Origin: a virus
DNA: 34,472 bases
Virus record (IMG/VR): IMGVR_UViG_3300046028_000173
Span: 1 to 34,472 of that record
Reading direction: 5' to 3' (one strand)
In this document: in pieces, positions 12,211-21,504 of the stretch
Numbering within the stretch: position 1 is the stretch's first letter
Layout: each line of letters begins with the position of its first letter
Made by a program: the position numbers and the translations under genes
The notes under the pieces: model-generated
Told to the model about the DNA's origin: nothing
The model's input: only the letters and a program-made list of their open reading frames with translations
Databases searched by the model: none

Positions 12211-12554
12211 GTTATCACCTCAATCTCAACGGCGTACTCGCCGGCCTTGCCTGACCTCTGAAAATACTGCCAGTCCACCAGACTACTGCCATCATCCACG
12301 CCAAGCCAATCAGCCACACCATCCCTGACCGCCTTAAACCCAGACTGCAAGTTATCGCCATCAAGCCTTCTTGGTGCAATCCTCGTCAACACCACAGTGA
12401 CCGGCAAAACCTCCACACCAAAAGACTGAGCCACAGCTGCCAAACTCAACCGAGTCCTCGTTCTCTGATCCCTCGTCAACTTCGCTTTAGCCGCCCAATG
12501 CAATCTCATGTTCGCCACACTCACAATTTTCATGTTCATCCTGACCTCAATCAT
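12207..12554 (-). CDS. rusA: RusA-like Holliday junction resolvase
   Basis: This 115-aa protein matches the RusA family pattern: LDGDNLQSGFKAVRDGVADW gives D67, N68, K74 and D78, followed by the acidic pair D87/D88 in GVDDG. RusA enzymes act as dimers and cut four-way DNA junctions, here probably to clear recombination intermediates and branched concatemers before packaging. The length is close to the family norm of about 120 aa. The ATG at 12552-12554 has GGAG about 8 bases upstream. It lies between the repeat array and the terminase region, within the replication part of the leftward block. Confidence 0.85.
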   Translation of the reverse strand: MIEVRMNMKIVSVANMRLHWAAKAKLTRDQRTRTRLSLAAVAQSFGVEVLPVTVVLTRIAPRRLDGDNLQSGFKAVRDGVADWLGVDDGSSLVDWQYFQRSGKAGEYAVEIEVIT

Positions 12555-12598
12555 CAGTCAACTCCAATCTATCAAAACCACCTACCCAAAGTTCGGAT

Positions 12599-12887
12599 GT
12601 ACCGAACCCCTTTATGTACCGAACCTGGGTGTCCTATAAGGACACCCGGTACGTTTCGGTACACCGAAGGTGGGGTCACCCGGTACATTTCGGTACGTTT
12701 CGGTACATATCGGTACACGGTTCGGTACATTTGCCATGTACCGATGTACCGAACTCGGTACATTTCGGTACACTTCGGTACATTTGGCTTGTAACAAAGT
12801 TACCATTTCGGTACGTTTCGGTACAATTCCATTGTAACTTTGTTTCATACTGGCTCATTTGGCTCTACTTTCGGTACAGTTCGGTAC
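12599..12887. repeat. Array of 18 CGGTAC/GTACCG repeats with 10-bp phasing (iteron-like)
   Basis: CGGTAC starts at 12647, 12657, 12681, 12691, 12701, 12711, 12723, 12756, 12766, 12776, 12809, 12819, 12872 and 12882; GTACCG starts at 12599, 12616, 12738 and 12746. Nine successive pairs are exactly 10 bp apart, one helical turn, with consensus TTTCGGTAC(A/G). The array covers the last codons of the primase-helicase gene and the 290-base gap before the RusA-like gene. It looks like a cooperative protein-binding array such as plasmid iterons. It is not a CRISPR: there are no spacers and the unit is too short. Confidence 0.9.
12627..12647. repeat. Perfect 9-bp hairpin inside the repeat array
   Basis: GGGTGTCCT (12627-12635), loop ATA, then AGGACACCC (12639-12647). 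It is flanked by GTACCG at 12616 and CGGTAC at 12647, so the whole block is nearly two-fold symmetric. Neither strand has a T-run after it, so it is not an ordinary terminator. Cruciform, primase recognition or strand-initiation roles are possible (inference). Confidence 0.8.
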
Positions 12888-14893
12888 ATACCAGCATTCT
12901 CAAAAACCATGGATTTCTTGGTCAAAGCATCCAAACACTCCTTGAATCTGCGTGAATTCAGACCATGGCTCTTGGCGCTTTCACGCCATTCATCGTAATC
13001 CACCATGGCAGCAAACCCTTCAATTCCATCACTGGTTCGCTTGGCTTCGATAGACACCAAAGAGTTAAGTGCAATGCGTTGATTACCCGATAAAAGCGCC
13101 CGTTTTTGGATATTACCCATCAGGCCGGAGATGTCCACCGCCGTAAGGTATGCACCCCGAACTGGCGCTCCATTCTTATCTTGGATCGGCAAATCAACCT
13201 GAGTGATCTGAAAGTTCTTTGGTGCAGGCATCTCTGCATCTTTCATCTTCTTGGACTCAAAGGCTATGGTCTTTGTGCCCGCATCCAACTGGCAACGATA
13301 TTCCGCATCCAGTGCGCCCTTCAATGCCGTTGATCCCCGACTGCGATCCTTATCTGCCACGCCTGAGTGGTGCACCACCAGAACACAGCACTTCCATGGT
13401 TGCCGAAGATAAACATCCAGATGCTGAATAAACGCATTCATGTCCTGAGTGGAGTTCTCATCACCACCATGGTTACGCGCTAGAGTGTCAATGATGATCA
13501 TGCTTGGCACAGTCCCAGCTTGCGCTGACAGCTCCTTGATGCTCTCTGCCACCACTGCCGCCTCGGTTGCATCGTACAACTGCGCCGCACGATGGCTTTT
13601 GTACAATGGCGCACCATCAAGGCTTTGCCCATTGCCCAACTGCCACGCCTTGAACCGCCGAGCCAAGCCATTATGCCCTTCGCCGGCAATATAGAACACC
13701 GAGCCTTGCTTGACCTCATGGCCATGCCATGGACGGCCAGTGGCTACACAGCAAGCTATGTCGATGCTGACAAATGATTTACCACCGCCTGGATCACCGA
13801 ACACTTGTGCCAAGCTGTCGCTCTCAATGTAGTCATCCACAATCCAGTTAATCTGGCTAAGTTGCAAGTTATCTGCCCGAGTAAACTCAAACGCCAGTTT
13901 GTCTTTCATTGGCCCAGCTACGCGCTCAATCTGCTCTTTGACCGCATCTAGTCCTTGCAGGCAGTGCAGGTCATTGAAGTCTGTTGGTTTGTTGTCCACC
14001 ATGTCAGACTCCCCAAATGATGGGTACACAATCTCCCCAAAGACCAGAGCTGCCGCAGCCCTGCCCTTGGCAACACCAGGGTTGCCCTCGGTGAACTGGT
14101 CATTATCTGCGCCAATGATGATCTTGGAGCCTGGGAACATCTCCTTCGCGCTCTTGGCTACCTTGGCTAAGTTCCCACAATCAAACGCCACCAAGACTGT
14201 GTAGTCCGTTGCCTCATGGATCGATGCACATGTGGCAAAACCCTCACCAATGAACACAATCTTCCTATTGCCACGCAACTCATAAAAACCACCCTCAATC
14301 TTGCCGCCCTTCAAGAACCGCTTGTTGCCATCTGCATCAATGGTCTGATAACTCAGGATTTCGCCCGCTTGGTTGATCACAGGCACAACCAGTCTGCCTG
14401 CACGATCAATCTTGATCCCATGCGCTTGAATGTGCTTCCTGACAAGGTATGGATGGTCATCACTGGCATCTGCATACGTCCCAACCTCATCCTCTGCACG
14501 TTCGGCAGCCACCGCCTGCGAAGCCAGCCTGTCAGCTTCCTTCTTGGCCTTGACATCTGCTATCCACTTATCATGCTCAAAGCGCTCAGTAAACGACATT
14601 TGCCTGCCAGTATCTGCCACCCACTTGGCCTCAAACACTGGCTCTTTCCAACAGCCTGCAATGCCAACCGGCACTTTGCCACTGGTGTGCAAGATGTACC
14701 AACCATCCAATGCACCCTTCTTAGAAGAGATATGAGCCACCCTGTGTATCTCACCATCTGCCACAATCTGGTCTTTGATCACAAGTCCCGCAGCCTCGCA
14801 ATGACGGCGAAACCCCTCTTCTGGGTTGATCAGGTCTTGGCTCTCTGTGGCGGCCGCGAAGCCGTTGGGGAATATTGTTGTTAGGTTAGTCAT
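12845..14893 (-). CDS. Primase-helicase (TOPRIM plus RepA-like ATPase)
   Basis: This 682-aa protein joins two modules. Residues ~140-325 form a TOPRIM primase-type domain, with E217 in VFIGEGFATC and D263/D265 in IIGADND. Residues ~345-600 form a RecA-like ATPase of the RepA/AAA_25 kind, with Walker A GDPGGGKS (366-373), Walker B MIIIDT (D469) and VVHHSG (507-511). This is the phage's main replication protein, priming and unwinding DNA. I see no N-terminal zinc finger. The last ~14 codons run into the CGGTAC array (MYRTVPK), so coding and repeat sequence overlap. The start overlaps the methyltransferase stop by 4 bases. Confidence 0.9.
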   Translation of the reverse strand: MTNLTTIFPNGFAAATESQDLINPEEGFRRHCEAAGLVIKDQIVADGEIHRVAHISSKKGALDGWYILHTSGKVPVGIAGCWKEPVFEAKWVADTGRQMSFTERFEHDKWIADVKAKKEADRLASQAVAAERAEDEVGTYADASDDHPYLVRKHIQAHGIKIDRAGRLVVPVINQAGEILSYQTIDADGNKRFLKGGKIEGGFYELRGNRKIVFIGEGFATCASIHEATDYTVLVAFDCGNLAKVAKSAKEMFPGSKIIIGADNDQFTEGNPGVAKGRAAAALVFGEIVYPSFGESDMVDNKPTDFNDLHCLQGLDAVKEQIERVAGPMKDKLAFEFTRADNLQLSQINWIVDDYIESDSLAQVFGDPGGGKSFVSIDIACCVATGRPWHGHEVKQGSVFYIAGEGHNGLARRFKAWQLGNGQSLDGAPLYKSHRAAQLYDATEAAVVAESIKELSAQAGTVPSMIIIDTLARNHGGDENSTQDMNAFIQHLDVYLRQPWKCCVLVVHHSGVADKDRSRGSTALKGALDAEYRCQLDAGTKTIAFESKKMKDAEMPAPKNFQITQVDLPIQDKNGAPVRGAYLTAVDISGLMGNIQKRALLSGNQRIALNSLVSIEAKRTSDGIEGFAAMVDYDEWRESAKSHGLNSRRFKECLDALTKKSMVFENAGMYRTVPKVEPNEPV

Positions 14894-15993
14894 GCAAAAT
14901 CCAATGAATACTGCGCTATACGCTTGTTTTGAAGTGTCTTGTAATTTTCGTTCAATTCACAACCAAGATATTGACGGCCAAGGGTCTGTGCTACTTGCGC
15001 TGTTGTACCACTACCCATGAACGGGTCAAGCACTACACCGCCCACTGGTGCGCCAGCAAGTATGCAAGGCTCAATAAGTTCACTTGGAAAAACAGCAAAG
15101 TGTGCGCCTGTGTATGGTTTTACAGGAACACTCCAAACACTTCTTTTGTTTGCCATGCCATCAGCACCAAACACTCTCTCACCTTTACTAAACCTATCTC
15201 CTTTTGAGTAATCAGCTTGATAACCTTCAGCATTTTTATCTCGTGTCTCTGGCTCACCCTTCAAAGGCTCTTTAATTGCCTCATGGTCATAGTAATACTT
15301 CTGAGACTTGCTCATCAAAAAAATGTACTCATGCGCCTTGGTACATCTGTCTTGCACCGATTCTGGCATTGGGTTTGGTTTATGCCAAACAATGTCTTGA
15401 CGCAAATACCAACCATCTGCCCTCAAAGCAAATGCAAGCATCCAAGGAATCCCAATGAGGTCTTTTGTTTTTAAACCAGTAGCGTGTAGCTTGTCCAACT
15501 TCCTGTCATTGGCTGGCATATTGTTTCTGCCCTCACGCTGATACTCAGGACTGGCTCTGGCGAAACCATTACTGTTGCAATAGCTGTCGCCAATGTTGAC
15601 CCACAAAGTGCCATCGTCTTCCAGCACATCCCAAACACATCGGAACACCTCAACCATTGCTTTGATGTATTCCTCTGGGGTTTCCTCAAGACCAATCTGT
15701 GAATCAATTCTTATAGCATTGCAATCTGGGCATTTGTGTTTATAGGAAAGATACTTTTCATTCTCTTTACCATTTTCTTTTCTTAATCTTTCACCAGTAA
15801 AACCGCCAACTTTTAAAGGATTTACCTTAGCCCCACTATGATGACAATCAGCATTACCACCCTCCCACTTAGCAGTCCCATAGTCACGCAAACCATAGTA
15901 AGGAGGGCTGGTCACACAAGTTTGAGCTTTAACGCCTTGTGATGCCCATTTACGCATTGTTTCACGGCAATCGCCAAATTCAATCTTGTTCAT
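14890..15993 (-). CDS. DNA methyltransferase (N4-cytosine/N6-adenine, beta-type order)
   Basis: This 367-aa protein has the catalytic motif IV near the N-terminus, TSPPYYGLRDYG (28-39), and the AdoMet-binding motif I near the C-terminus, DPFMGSGTT (323-331), with GRQYLGCELN after it. This permuted order is that of the beta class. The SPPY form is common in N4-cytosine enzymes but does not exclude N6-adenine. A Cys-rich insert (DCHH ... KCPDC) may bind zinc. There is no partner nuclease nearby, so it is an orphan enzyme, likely protecting phage DNA or marking regulatory sites. It is joined by ATGA overlaps to the regulator upstream and the primase downstream. Confidence 0.92.
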   Translation of the reverse strand: MNKIEFGDCRETMRKWASQGVKAQTCVTSPPYYGLRDYGTAKWEGGNADCHHSGAKVNPLKVGGFTGERLRKENGKENEKYLSYKHKCPDCNAIRIDSQIGLEETPEEYIKAMVEVFRCVWDVLEDDGTLWVNIGDSYCNSNGFARASPEYQREGRNNMPANDRKLDKLHATGLKTKDLIGIPWMLAFALRADGWYLRQDIVWHKPNPMPESVQDRCTKAHEYIFLMSKSQKYYYDHEAIKEPLKGEPETRDKNAEGYQADYSKGDRFSKGERVFGADGMANKRSVWSVPVKPYTGAHFAVFPSELIEPCILAGAPVGGVVLDPFMGSGTTAQVAQTLGRQYLGCELNENYKTLQNKRIAQYSLDFA

Positions 15994-16172
15994 ACTTCCA
16001 CCCTGTCTTTACCCTCAAGGTAATCACTTAGCGCCTTGACAGTCTCATACATTGGCTCAGTCTCACCAGACATCAGTCGGTACACCCTCGCCTCATGGAT
16101 GCCTGCCTTTTCGGCAACTTTCTTTAGGTTGGCATCCACCAATCTGGCTTTGATTTCTTCCAAGTTCATCAT
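15990..16172 (-). CDS. Small Cro/XRE-like regulator (60 aa)
   Basis: The start chosen is the ATG at 16170-16172, with AGGTGG 5 bases upstream; the GTG at 16181 lies within that ribosome site. The 60-aa product has a helix-turn-helix region: LKKVAEKAGIHEARVYRLMS followed by ETVKALSDYLEG, typical of minimal Cro/XRE proteins that bind operators as dimers. It is the first gene of the leftward block and faces the rightward block across a 125-base control region. It most likely sets the balance between the two. No long repressor with a cleavage domain is present. Confidence 0.83.
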   Translation of the reverse strand: MMNLEEIKARLVDANLKKVAEKAGIHEARVYRLMSGETEPMYETVKALSDYLEGKDRVEV

Positions 16173-16297
16173 AAAAACCACCTTTTCGTAAAAATATTTT
16201 CAAACTGATGGGAATATTAACACAAACCATGCTAAAGTCACACACATGCCAACGAAATAGTTTGTTGGCATCACGCCGAAAGGCCAAAGGAAACAAA
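16173..16297. promoter_or_regulatory. Divergent control region
   Basis: This gap separates the leftward regulator gene from the rightward block, so two outward promoters are expected. A rightward extended -10 candidate, TGCTAAAGT (16230-16238), is visible with no good -35. The region is AT-rich at 16186-16222. A perfect dyad (16246-16271) and a GCC-GAAA-GGC mini-hairpin (16275-16284) lie in the rightward leader, before AAAGGA and the ATG at 16298. The leftward promoter could not be resolved. Confidence 0.6.
16246..16271. promoter_or_regulatory. 8-bp dyad, candidate operator or leader hairpin
   Basis: ATGCCAAC (16246-16253) and GTTGGCAT (16264-16271) are perfect inverted copies 10 bases apart. 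The 18-bp centre-to-centre symmetry suits a dimeric helix-turn-helix protein, such as the neighbouring regulator. There is no T-run, so a terminator is unlikely. Confidence 0.55.
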
Positions 16298-17354: not shown

Positions 17355-18101
17355 ATGGCCTTCGATCTCTCATCCATCTCCAAAACCAAACGTGTTCGCG
17401 CCCCCAAGATTGTTGTGGTTGGCCAAGGCAAGATTGGCAAGACAACCTTTGCTGCCATGGCGCCTAACGCCATTGGCATCCTGACCGAAGACGGCGCTGA
17501 CGCTGTTGACGCAAACGCATTCCCTTTGGCGGCAAGTCTGCCCGAGGTGTACGCCGCCATTGACACATTGATCAACCAAACGCATGACTTTCAGACACTT
17601 TTCATTGACAGTCTGGATTGGCTTGAACCCATGATCCAAGAGTATGTGTGCAAGCAGAACAATTGGAAGAACATTGAAGCACCAGGCTTCGGTAAGGGCT
17701 ACGTGGCCGCCGCTGAAGAGTGGCGTAACCTTTTGTCTGGCTTAGAAGTCCTGCGCTCTGCCAAGGGCATGGGCATCATCCTGATTGCTCACGACAAGAT
17801 CAAGCGCATTGAAGACCCACTGACCGAAGGCTATGACAGCCATGTCCTCAAACTGCACGACAAGGCCGCCGGTCTAGTGCAAGAGTGGGCTGATGTCATT
17901 GGCTACGCAGGCTACCGCATCTTCACAAGCAAAACCGATGCAGGGTTCTCTAAGAAAGAAACCAAGGCCACGACAACTGGTGAGCGCATCTTGCACGTTG
18001 AACCCCATCCGGCTCACTGCGGTGGTAACCGCTTTGGCCTTCAGAATATGCCGCTTGACTGGACGGCATTCCAAGCAGCGCTCACAGTAGCGCAGTCTTG
18101 A
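17355..18101 (+). CDS. Sak4-like RecA-fold ATPase (AAA_24 type)
   Basis: This 248-aa protein has Walker A GQGKIGKT (23-30), Walker B TLFIDSLDW (81-89) and a following GIILIAHDKIKR segment, typical of phage Sak4/AAA_24 nucleotide-binding proteins. These are short RecA/Rad51-like enzymes that promote single-strand annealing or exchange, working with a phage SSB. The next genes are a DUF669 protein and a RecB/Cas4-like nuclease, which together make a full phage recombination set. The ATPase motifs are intact. Confidence 0.87.
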   Translation: MAFDLSSISKTKRVRAPKIVVVGQGKIGKTTFAAMAPNAIGILTEDGADAVDANAFPLAASLPEVYAAIDTLINQTHDFQTLFIDSLDWLEPMIQEYVCKQNNWKNIEAPGFGKGYVAAAEEWRNLLSGLEVLRSAKGMGIILIAHDKIKRIEDPLTEGYDSHVLKLHDKAAGLVQEWADVIGYAGYRIFTSKTDAGFSKKETKATTTGERILHVEPHPAHCGGNRFGLQNMPLDWTAFQAALTVAQS

Positions 18102-18140
18102 TCACACCAGTTCGTAACTTAACTTTTTAGGAAATTTATC

Positions 18141-18656
18141 ATGGCTCAGTTTAATTTTGACGCATCTCAAGTCGTCCCCCAACAGTCTTCAGGCCCACTG
18201 CCTGCGGGCGTTTATCTGGCTCACATTGTTGAGTCTGATGTTCAGCCATTGAAGTCCGGCAACGGCGAAGGCTTGAAACTCACCTTTGAGGTCATTGATG
18301 GTCAGTTCAAAGGCCGCAAGGTTTATGAGAACCTGAACATTCGCCACACCAGTGAAGACACTCAGCGCATTGCACAAAGCCAGTTGTCTGCGCTTTGCCA
18401 CGCCGTGAACGTGATCAAGTTGATGGATACCGCTGCCCTGCACTTCAAGCCAGTTCGCATCAATGTGACTGTGCGCGAGGCAGTTGGTCAGTACAAGGCC
18501 AGTAACAACATCAAGGGCTATGAGGCCGCAGGCGGTGGGATTAGCGCACCAGCTGCTGCACCAACCCCTGCGCCTGTGGCTGAAGCCCCTGCATGGCCTA
18601 CCGCCGAGCAAGAAGCCGCCAAGTCTAAAACACCCGCATGGGCTAAGAAAGGCTGA
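18141..18656 (+). CDS. DUF669 single-stranded DNA-binding protein
   Basis: This 171-aa protein starts MAQFNFDASQVVPQQSSGPL and contains PAGVYLAHIVESDVQPLKSG and LKLTFEVIDGQFKGRKVYEN, the hallmark of DUF669 proteins, which function as phage SSBs. The N-terminal ~130 residues form the beta-rich DNA-binding part. Then comes an Ala/Pro linker (APAAAPTPAPVAEAPAWP) and a short basic end rather than the acidic tip of bacterial SSB. AGGAA precedes the ATG. The place between the Sak4-like ATPase and the nuclease is the standard partner arrangement. Confidence 0.87.
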   Translation: MAQFNFDASQVVPQQSSGPLPAGVYLAHIVESDVQPLKSGNGEGLKLTFEVIDGQFKGRKVYENLNIRHTSEDTQRIAQSQLSALCHAVNVIKLMDTAALHFKPVRINVTVREAVGQYKASNNIKGYEAAGGGISAPAAAPTPAPVAEAPAWPTAEQEAAKSKTPAWAKKG

Positions 18657-18657
18657 C

Positions 18658-19746
18658 ATGGCCTTACTTCCACAATCAGTTACTGATCCTGTGGCCGATG
18701 CCATCTTTGCCCACTACAAGGCAAAGTTTGGCGCGGAAACCCAGCGCCCTTACCTTGGCGCCTCTGCCATTGGCAAGCCTTGCCTGCGCCAGCACTGGTA
18801 TTCATTTCGGTGGTCTAAGCCTGCGCAGTTCTCTGGCCGCCTGTACCGAGTGTTTCAGTCTGGCCACCTTCAGGAGCCAAGGGTCTATGCTGACTTGTCT
18901 AGCATTGGTTGCACTGTCTACCAACTTAACCCTGCCACGGGCAAACAGTGGTCATTCACCGAACCCGCAACTGGCCACCATTTTCAAGGCAATGCAGACG
19001 GCATCATCACTGGCCTACCGCAGGCGCCCAAGTCTCCGCACTTGTTGGAGATCAAGACCGCATCTGACAAGATGTTTAAAGAAATGCAGAAATCTGGCGT
19101 AAAGAAGGCCAAGCCCGAACACTACGCGCAGATGCAAATATACATGAAGTGGAGCATTGATCAGTTTGGGGAAGATGGCTGTCAACGTGCGCTGTACTTT
19201 GTGGTCAACAAAGACAATGACGACATCTACACCGAGCGCTTAGAGTACGACAAGTGCGAAGCGCAGGCCATCATCAACAAGGCCATGGCGGTGATCACTG
19301 CGCCCGAGCCACCAGTTGGAGTTTCTACCGACCCTACTTGGTTTGAGTGCAAGTTCTGTGATTACCAGGCGATCTGTCACGGCACAGACGTTCCTGCGCC
19401 AACGTGCCGTTCATGCGTTCATGCCACGCCTGAACTGGATGGCAATGCAGTTTGGTCATGCGCTTCCCATACCACAGTTTTGTCAGAAAAAATGCAGCGC
19501 AAGGGTTGTAATGATCACCGCTTTATCCCTATTTTGCTTTCCAAAACAGGCCATCCAGTTGATCTTGATCAAAATGATAATGTGGTTTACAAGACGCCAG
19601 AAGGCAAACAGTTTGTCAATGGCGACCCAGACAAGAATCCCGATCACATCAGCAGTGCTGAAATTCACGCCTGTGCAGACAAGACCGCCTTGGTGGACGA
19701 GTTTGCCCTTGATCTGAGAAAACAACATAATGCAAGGTTTGTATGA
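18658..19746 (+). CDS. PD-(D/E)XK exonuclease, Cas4/RecB-like with Fe-S type cysteines
   Basis: The start is the ATG at 18658, one base after the SSB stop. The product is 362 aa. The nuclease core is D114 (NADGIITG) and E131-x-K133 (LLEIKTAS), with H70 and E73 upstream. One early Cys (C42 in KPCLRQHW) and three later ones (C231, C234, C240 in ECKFCDYQAIC) match the 1+3 pattern of iron-sulphur nucleases such as Cas4 and AddB. A further CRSC follows at 250-253, and the ~110-residue tail may be a separate domain. It likely resects DNA ends for Sak4-mediated annealing. Confidence 0.88.
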   Translation: MALLPQSVTDPVADAIFAHYKAKFGAETQRPYLGASAIGKPCLRQHWYSFRWSKPAQFSGRLYRVFQSGHLQEPRVYADLSSIGCTVYQLNPATGKQWSFTEPATGHHFQGNADGIITGLPQAPKSPHLLEIKTASDKMFKEMQKSGVKKAKPEHYAQMQIYMKWSIDQFGEDGCQRALYFVVNKDNDDIYTERLEYDKCEAQAIINKAMAVITAPEPPVGVSTDPTWFECKFCDYQAICHGTDVPAPTCRSCVHATPELDGNAVWSCASHTTVLSEKMQRKGCNDHRFIPILLSKTGHPVDLDQNDNVVYKTPEGKQFVNGDPDKNPDHISSAEIHACADKTALVDEFALDLRKQHNARFV

Positions 19747-19901
19747 CCACTCCACCAATTGACCAAATTACCTTGCGTGACTTCTTTGCCGCAGCTGCCT
19801 TAACTGGTTTGCTTGCAAGTTGTGACCGCAATACTGCTGTAGAAAACGCTTACGTCATGGCTGACAAGATGCTTGAGGAGCGCCAACGTGATCCTGCGTG
19901 A
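19743..19901 (+). CDS. Small protein (52 aa) between nuclease and helicase
   Basis: A frame from the ATG at 19743 (ATGA overlap with the nuclease stop) to the TGA at 19899-19901 gives 52 aa: MTTPPIDQITLRDFFAAAAL ... MADKMLEERQRDPA. It has an Ala-rich helix and one Cys and is not clearly a membrane protein. The RDFFAAAALTGLLA segment resembles short host and phage proteins of unknown role. It overlaps the helicase start by 14 bases and carries its ribosome site (GAGGAG). Confidence 0.72.
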   Translation: MTTPPIDQITLRDFFAAAALTGLLASCDRNTAVENAYVMADKMLEERQRDPA

Positions 19902-21504
19902 GTATCAGTCTCGCGCAGTCACAGACCTGTTTGCTTGGTGGACAAAGCATCAAGAGGATCACGACATTCCTCTTTTGGTGCTACCCACCGCCGCAGGCAA
20001 GTCGGTGATCTGCGCTGAGATTGTGCGCCAGATGTGGGAGCAGTGGCCACTTTTCCAACCTAGAACTGTGGTGTTAGTTCCATCCAAGGAACTGGCCGAG
20101 CAGAATGCGGCCAAATTGAGGGCGCTGTTACCTCACACTATCAGCGTGGGTTATGTCAGCGCAAGCCTAGGCGCCAAAAAGTACAACGCTGATGTGATTG
20201 TGGCCACCATTGGCAGCATTCACAAGGCCGCGCACTTGCTTGGCAACATCAAGGCCGTGGTGATTGATGAGGCTCATCTGGTGAGCCAGAAGGCAGGGGA
20301 TGCAGGGATGTACCGCACCTTCTTGTCTAATCTTGGTGAAATATGCAAATTTAGGACGGTTGGCATGACGGCCACGCCTTTTAGGGGTAATGGCGTTTGG
20401 CTGACCGATGGTGATGAGCCACTCTTTACTGGCATTGCCAGCAGAGTCTCTATGCGTGAACTACTTAGTGCCAAGTTCATTGCGCCACTTGTCCCGCCTA
20501 CCAAACATATTGAAACCCGCATTGACGCAAGCCATGTTGGCATCTCTAACGGCGACTACAAGGTTGGCGAACTATCCCGAGAGGTTGAGAAATACCTAGC
20601 CAAAGTGGCTGTAGAAGCCACCAGAATCGCCTCAGAGCGCAAGAAATGGATTGCCTTTACACCGAGTGTCGCCAACGCTGAAAGCCTGTCTGACAAGCTA
20701 AATAGGCGCGGCATTGTGAGTGCCGTTGTGTGTGGCGAAACCCCCAAGCAAGAGCGCGAAGACCTGATTCGTCAGTTTAAGGAACATCAGATTCACTGCT
20801 TGGTAACTGTCTTGGCGCTCTCAGTTGGCTTTGATGTGCCAGACGTAGACTGCATTGTTTGGTGCAGGCCTACCAAGTCGCCAGTGCTTTATGTGCAGGG
20901 CATGGGCCGAGGCACTCGCATTGCAGACGGCAAGACAGATTGCCTGGTGCTTGACTTTACTGACACAGTTGAGCGCTTGGGGCCAGTGGATACCATCCAA
21001 GGCAGGACTAAAAAGAGGTCAGGCCCTCAAGAGGCGCCCTACAGCATCTGCCCAGATTGCGGAGAGCGCAACGCACCAGCTGCTCTTATCTGCATTCATT
21101 GCCATGGCCAAATACGTGAGGAAGAAGAGAAGCCATTGGATGCCAAGGTTTCATTGGCAGCGCTTTTGTCTAGTGCAAGTGAAATTGGCGAACTAATTTG
21201 GCATGATGTGACCAGAGTTGACTACGCTATTCACAGAAAAGAAGGCAAACCAGACTCTTTAAGGGTTGATTACTACTCTGGCCTGCTTCGCTGTGCCAGT
21301 GAGTGGGTTTGCTTTGATCACCATGGCTATGCCAAAGAAAAGGCTTACCAGTGGTGGTCTAGAAGAAACCCTAATGGCATCCAACCAAATAACACGTTTG
21401 TGGCATTTGGGTTGAACAAACAACTGTCATCACCAAGACGCATTGCAACCCGTAGAAACGGAAAATACACAGAGGTAAAACATTATGAATTTGATAGAAC
21501 TTAA
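19888..21504 (+). CDS. SF2 DEAH-box helicase with C-terminal zinc ribbon
   Basis: The start chosen is the GTG at 19888, 7 bases after GAGGAG; a TTG at 19873 would lie within that ribosome site. The product is 538 aa. It shows motif I LPTAAGKS (K38), DEAH (127-130), motif III TAT (161-163) and motif VI QGMGRGTR (337-344). A C4 zinc ribbon (CPDC ... CIHC, residues 388-405) follows, with a C-terminal domain of ~130 residues that I cannot name. Such phage enzymes unwind or remodel forks and D-loops. Its location after the nuclease fits replication/recombination. Confidence 0.9.
   Translation: MILREYQSRAVTDLFAWWTKHQEDHDIPLLVLPTAAGKSVICAEIVRQMWEQWPLFQPRTVVLVPSKELAEQNAAKLRALLPHTISVGYVSASLGAKKYNADVIVATIGSIHKAAHLLGNIKAVVIDEAHLVSQKAGDAGMYRTFLSNLGEICKFRTVGMTATPFRGNGVWLTDGDEPLFTGIASRVSMRELLSAKFIAPLVPPTKHIETRIDASHVGISNGDYKVGELSREVEKYLAKVAVEATRIASERKKWIAFTPSVANAESLSDKLNRRGIVSAVVCGETPKQEREDLIRQFKEHQIHCLVTVLALSVGFDVPDVDCIVWCRPTKSPVLYVQGMGRGTRIADGKTDCLVLDFTDTVERLGPVDTIQGRTKKRSGPQEAPYSICPDCGERNAPAALICIHCHGQIREEEEKPLDAKVSLAALLSSASEIGELIWHDVTRVDYAIHRKEGKPDSLRVDYYSGLLRCASEWVCFDHHGYAKEKAYQWWSRRNPNGIQPNNTFVAFGLNKQLSSPRRIATRRNGKYTEVKHYEFDRT

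Follow-up and report, generated by a model that had tools for sequence, protein, structure and literature searches.

A segment of under 300 bp in the virus record IMGVR_UViG_3300046028_000173, where one six-base word recurs at short and often identical intervals across the 3' end of a primase-helicase gene (rep), raises the question of what such an array does and which protein reads it. The window analyzed here is the whole of that stretch, 34,472 nucleotides in length, and features of the locus are collected in Table 1.

The array and the adjoining primase-helicase

Between positions 12599 and 12887 (289 bp) there are 18 exact CGGTAC/GTACCG sites, 14 on the + strand and 4 on the - strand, where chance would give about 0.05; our recount returned the same number as a preliminary description of this DNA. 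The whole 34.5-kb window contains 23 CGGTAC sites against 5.3 expected (maximum of 12 in 100 shuffles), so that chance accounts for the five sites that lie elsewhere. Start-to-start spacing is exactly 10 bp in nine successive pairs, as had been described, eight of these being same-strand and one opposite-strand (12746/12756), and the remaining spacings are 8, 12, 15, 17, 24, 31, 33 and 53 bp. The array is therefore a set of 10-bp runs with gaps and no single uniform tandem. Since rep is encoded on the - strand, the unit on its sense strand reads GTACCGAAAN. The array begins in the last codons of rep and runs past the stop, again as first described, with 2/18 sites inside the coding sequence and 16/18 located 3' of the stop. 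The decapeptide repeats that had been pointed out in all frames are a by-product, most frames across the array being interrupted by stops in relatives. Coding repeats as an explanation of the array were likewise rejected, the reading frames not being preserved in relatives.

The AAA_25 match in Rep has an E-value of 7.9e-38, and the family alignment profile retrieved the RSF1010 RepA helicase (1g8y) from the PDB (E 6.6e-9, positions 321-500), a relationship found only by the profile, as a single-sequence search of Rep against the PDB gave no match. AlphaFold, run with an alignment of the loci only as input, predicts a winged helix within the last 98 residues of Rep, with pLDDT > 90 in the domain core, and a winged helix is also predicted for the other large C-terminal type among Rep homologs. 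Comparison of the domain with VIA-align gave Z scores of 8-9.5 for the winged helices of MCM, Cdc6 and ORC, together with many unrelated winged helices; because the latter score alike, the fold is supported and no closer kinship is claimed. A Foldseek search with the domain returned generic winged helices only, none with E < 0.001. Pfam searches with the winged helix and with the product of the 115-aa downstream gene gave nothing above the cut-off, and 'RusA-like' for the latter is our own reading of its sequence rather than a tool assignment.

Table 1. Positions of features at the rep-array locus, in coordinates of the window.
Feature	Position	Strand	Remark
Extent of putative winged-helix and array cassette	12552..13124		From comparison with L042
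Iteron array	12599..12887		18 CGGTAC/GTACCG sites, 10-bp-phased groups
Two inverted iterons	12599..12621	+	Far side of dyad
Dyad GGGTGTC-CTATAAG-GACACCC	12627..12647		Between convergent iterons; arms vary, complementary in relatives
Iteron pair	12647..12662	-	Adjoining dyad
Five iterons	12681..12728	-	Spacings 10, 10, 10, 12
Three direct and two opposite-orientation iterons	12738..12781		Direct, 12756-12781; opposite, 12738-12751
A+T-richer stretch	12780..12859		35-40% GC, between iteron groups
Iteron pair	12809..12824	-	10-bp spacing, 3' of rep stop
rep, primase-helicase	12845..14893	-	682 aa; Toprim_3 + AAA_25 (RSF1010 RepA-type hexameric helicase)
Two iterons within rep coding tail	12872..12887	-	Encoding ...MYRTVPK...
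Winged-helix C-terminal domain of Rep	12878..13087	-	Residues ~603-672; proposed iteron reader
Predicted recognition helix SRRFKECLDALTK	12917..12955	-	Residues 647-659; RRFK/NRFR/NRFW varies with iteron type

Conservation of the array beside rep

A scan of IMG/VR provided 80 close relatives, and distant homologs were gathered through further scans and from GenBank phages. The array was scored as the copy number of the top 7-mer per 300-bp window in 181 non-redundant viral homologs with distinct C-termini. From -50 to +250 of the rep stop the mean was 6.7 copies and 70% of the 181 homologs had at least 4, compared with means of 2.2-2.4 and 0-2% with at least 4 copies in the other windows from -2050 to +550, and 0% in shuffles. 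Arrays occur in 27 of the 31 clusters formed at 70% protein identity, and 64% of the homologs in bacterial genomes (n=74, prophage) are positive in the -50 to +250 window, the repeats extending into the rep coding tail in some of them. An array beside the primase-helicase gene is thus present in related phages, the first comparison that the preliminary description had called for, and in many of these relatives the site number and layout are identical to the base. The 10-bp unit is typical for arrays of this TOPRIM-RepA-type family, being the mode of the same-strand spacing histogram over 59 loci (66 cases at 10 bp, with further spacings of 9, 11, 12 and 33-34 bp).

The repeat word itself differs between lineages. 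We counted 35 distinct words among 134 loci, each lineage having its own, among them TGGTTCA in Alteromonas phage XX1924, CGGTACA in Idiomarinaceae phage 1N2-2, GGGGACA in CGphi29 and GGCTGGA in CRP-406. GTAC, around which the repeats had been described as centered, is not a constant core, as TTACCGAA, CATCCGA, CGTCCGG and others occupy the same place in the family. This replacement by unrelated cores in sister phages bears on whether the repeats could act as a decoy for GTAC-related restriction or methylation; an N6/N4 methyltransferase gene does adjoin rep, but it is found in only 3/43 informative relatives, and we give a decoy next to no credence. We also assign very little probability to a centromere-like role in partition, of the kind known from ParR/parC. 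parC-type sites consist of ~11-bp repeats, which short helically phased repeats resemble; against this, no partition gene was found among the window proteins searched (part of the ORFs), and the array keeps to the 3' side of rep across phages, prophages, islands and one plasmid. The segregation or anti-defence roles offered in the preliminary description found nothing in support.

The array test was negative for 47/181 homologs, most of which share a single C-terminal type in which a small ORF takes the place of the array, and some of these 47 were missed through displacement or low complexity. The array-less homologs (L178, L123, L111 and ~40 similar loci) have a Rep C-terminus ending in ...ENGWIVIDPGTASGMMLKK, and the small ORF (MN..LTQLKAKLRAAQAELAIRTRTHNSASRAYNKV) follows rep. 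In several other relatives rep and the array are separated by an inserted PAPS-reductase-like gene (L008, 5062-5907; also L022, L024, L045, L048 and L067), and the array is kept intact at 0.85-1.2 kb from rep.

Covariation of repeat type with the winged helix

Covariation was assessed within the clade of the window phage (66 loci, cores 81-100% identical). Iteron similarity correlated with winged-helix identity (r 0.88; partial 0.85 given the core; permutation P 0.0005, n=66) and weakly with the enzyme core (r 0.48, n=66), while the downstream gene, used as a linkage control, had a negative coefficient with the other predictors in the model (beta -0.21). Judged from these sequence comparisons, the repeat type follows the winged-helix domain of Rep, and neither the enzyme core nor the next gene. 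The change is most direct between L005 and L042, which are 98% identical in the core and 89% in the downstream gene but only 46% in the winged helix, and whose arrays switch from GTACCGAA to TTACCGAA/AACCGAA between conserved flanks; relative to the rep stop, nucleotide identity declines near -280 and is regained near +293, an interval that spans just the winged helix and the array. Residues of the predicted recognition helix pair with repeat words as RRFKE/GTACCGA, NRFRE/WWACCGAA, NRFWE/CATCCGA and NRFWD/CGTCCGG, and in the window's clade the succession RRFK, NRFR, NRFW accompanies GTACCG, TTACCG, and ATCCG or GTCCG. One seemingly array-less locus (L253) has a winged helix of the NRFWD type, the one that goes with CGTCCGG, and its array, of GTCCGGA repeats, subsequently turned up at a distance of 0.5-0.9 kb downstream.

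Because the winged helix and the array are neighbors on the DNA, their co-exchange could in part be a matter of linkage. In its full form, this explanation holds that linkage alone makes the two travel together and that the array is a hot spot of recombination, or satellite DNA in expansion, to which Rep does not bind; repeats could indeed favor recombination. We regard it as highly improbable, given that layout and site number are base-exact in many relatives, that arrays moved 0.5-1.2 kb by an inserted gene are still matched to their winged helix, that the downstream gene, next on the DNA, is independent of iteron type, and that the domain has a predicted DNA-binding fold.

The covariation also bears on whether the array could be an operator through which another phage regulator controls rep or the next gene, for instance the XRE-like protein (15990-16181) that had been named as a possible reader. 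This gene lies in the same region, and repeats are common in phage operators. However, a close XRE homolog is present in only 7/43 informative relatives, where, at 93-95% identity, it stands beside both GTACCGAA and TTACCGAA arrays, and promoters are not in excess (2 found, 1.0 expected) at the array, which is located 3' of rep. As the XRE-like protein is mostly absent from relatives and does not track the iteron type, whereas the rep winged helix does, we consider an operator very unlikely.

The dyad and a model of a probable origin

Between convergent iterons lies a dyad whose arms vary among relatives. When segments in the window's clade were picked by the flanking inverted iterons alone, all were dyads, with arms GTGT/ACAC, GTAT/ATAC and GGGT/ACCC. 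With a criterion of a CT(W)nAG core and at least 7/10 flanking positions paired, a dyad was found at the equivalent place in 27.5% of loci (69/251) and in 0-1.8% elsewhere. The 41 distinct dyads include all four pair types; they were chosen for pairing, so the test is the comparison with other windows. Arms that are variable yet complementary suggest a structural role, and the dyad is a possible priming or cruciform element. An intrinsic terminator was considered and rejected, since the dyad has no T run and the sole terminator-like match lies elsewhere, near chance level. A known RNA was rejected also, with only a sub-threshold match in Rfam (E 0.73).

Our data point, with high probability, to the array being a phage replication origin, in which the adjoining primase-helicase would bind the iterons through its C-terminal winged helix. 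Adjacent Rep subunits would dock every 10 bp on one face of the helix, and the iterons converging on the dyad would position a Rep ring. This ring would open the DNA either at the dyad or in the neighboring A+T-richer stretch, a possible melting region of modest A+T richness, after which unwinding and priming would fall to the same Rep polypeptide. All of these steps, from iteron binding and the loading of the ring to DNA melting, primer synthesis at the dyad and origin function in vivo, are inferred. Cumulative GC skew gave no clear turn at the array. More tentatively, the winged helix and its matched iterons may form an exchangeable cassette, swapped whole so that the origins of co-infecting relatives are not cross-fired, and the dyad, of which only the CT(W)nAG core and the self-complementarity are conserved, may be a structural element, folded as a single-strand hairpin or a cruciform, at which primers for both strands are begun by the TOPRIM primase. 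The iteron and origin idea in the preliminary description is well supported in this form, with the primase-helicase's own winged helix as the probable initiator; what falls away is a wholly new type of origin, as SaPI and PICI islands share the layout.

Combined with a different helicase family, this layout has a wide distribution among tailed phages and prophages and occurs on one plasmid, and the arrays suggest an origin in a large group of uncultivated phages that previously had no known start of replication. The pairing of ~35 repeat words with different winged helices also makes a natural data set on DNA choice by this fold. Elsewhere in the window there is a recombination module (17355-19746) consisting of a Sak4-like ATPase, an SSB-like protein (DUF669) and a Cas4-domain exonuclease, followed by a DEAD helicase (19873-21504).

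Comparison with known replication systems

In SaPIs, the C-terminal domain of Rep binds iterons immediately downstream of rep (PMC7581432). PICI origins have the same layout, and the rep-ori of EcCICFT073 maintains a plasmid, the ori being functional (PMC6092414). These systems share with the locus described here short repeats directly 3' of rep, element-specific iterons and an initiator helicase with a C-terminal DNA-binding domain, which here is predicted. The tested SaPI and PICI Reps are of the D5/SF3 or DUF927 type, whereas here a RepA-type helicase is fused to a TOPRIM primase, and the 10-bp iteron pitch and the CT(W)nAG dyad are also unlike SaPI/PICI. Their two iteron sets flank an A+T-rich region; here a stretch of 35-40% GC lies between iteron groups, and the convergent iterons flank the dyad instead. 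SaPIs and PICIs are satellites without a full structural gene set, in contrast to the window phage, which has tailed-phage structural genes of its own, namely a large terminase and portal-like and capsid-like proteins (the latter by eye from the ORFs).

The EcCICFT073 island has a D5_N-type pri-rep followed by a GTCTACC repeat array, and in two other E. coli islands, L402 (AAGTGAG) and L406 (GTGGGGA), a RepA-type Rep is followed by its own 3' array. The E. coli islands L402, L406 and L405 have one slot in common, DUF4222-rep-SSB-PerC, in which Rep is either RepA-type or D5-type and is followed by its own 3' array; the RepA-type islands occupy the slot that pri-rep-ori takes in EcCICFT073. Since the neighbors are the same and the Reps differ, one rep type has taken the place of another at this position, in each case together with an array. 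The 37-kb Methylomagnum plasmid pRS11DPr4 (L403, 4441-4900) carries a TOPRIM-RepA gene and then 11 ACCTCGC repeats, with a second repeat set ~0.6 kb beyond the first.

RSF1010 has iterons as well as inverted repeats at the priming start (PMC4234260). Its RepA/RepC/RepB' system shares the helicase family (1g8y) and the combination of iterons with inverted repeats, but divides iteron binding, helicase and primase among three proteins, where here there is one polypeptide with the array 3' of its gene. The candidate iteron reader, a winged helix by predicted fold, is fused to the helicase in Rep, and no separate RepC-like protein was found among the window proteins searched (part of the ORFs). The alpha protein of satellite phage P4 is likewise a single multi-domain protein, although its helicase is SF3 and that of Rep is of the AAA_25/RepA type. 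Primase, helicase and a C-terminal origin-binding domain are combined in P4 alpha (PMC4234260). The origins of plasmid pRN1 and phage BIP-1 are also 3' of a primase-helicase-winged-helix gene, and their stem-loop is conserved in structure and not in sequence, as is the dyad here; unlike the present locus, they have no iterons, a stem-loop of ~100 nt, an AEP primase and an SF3 helicase (PMC4234260). We found no report of such an origin for TOPRIM-RepA phages in the literature, which for open papers only is weak evidence of absence. In tailed phages, and with a helicase of another family, the proposed array origin would share its working principle with those of SaPIs and PICIs.
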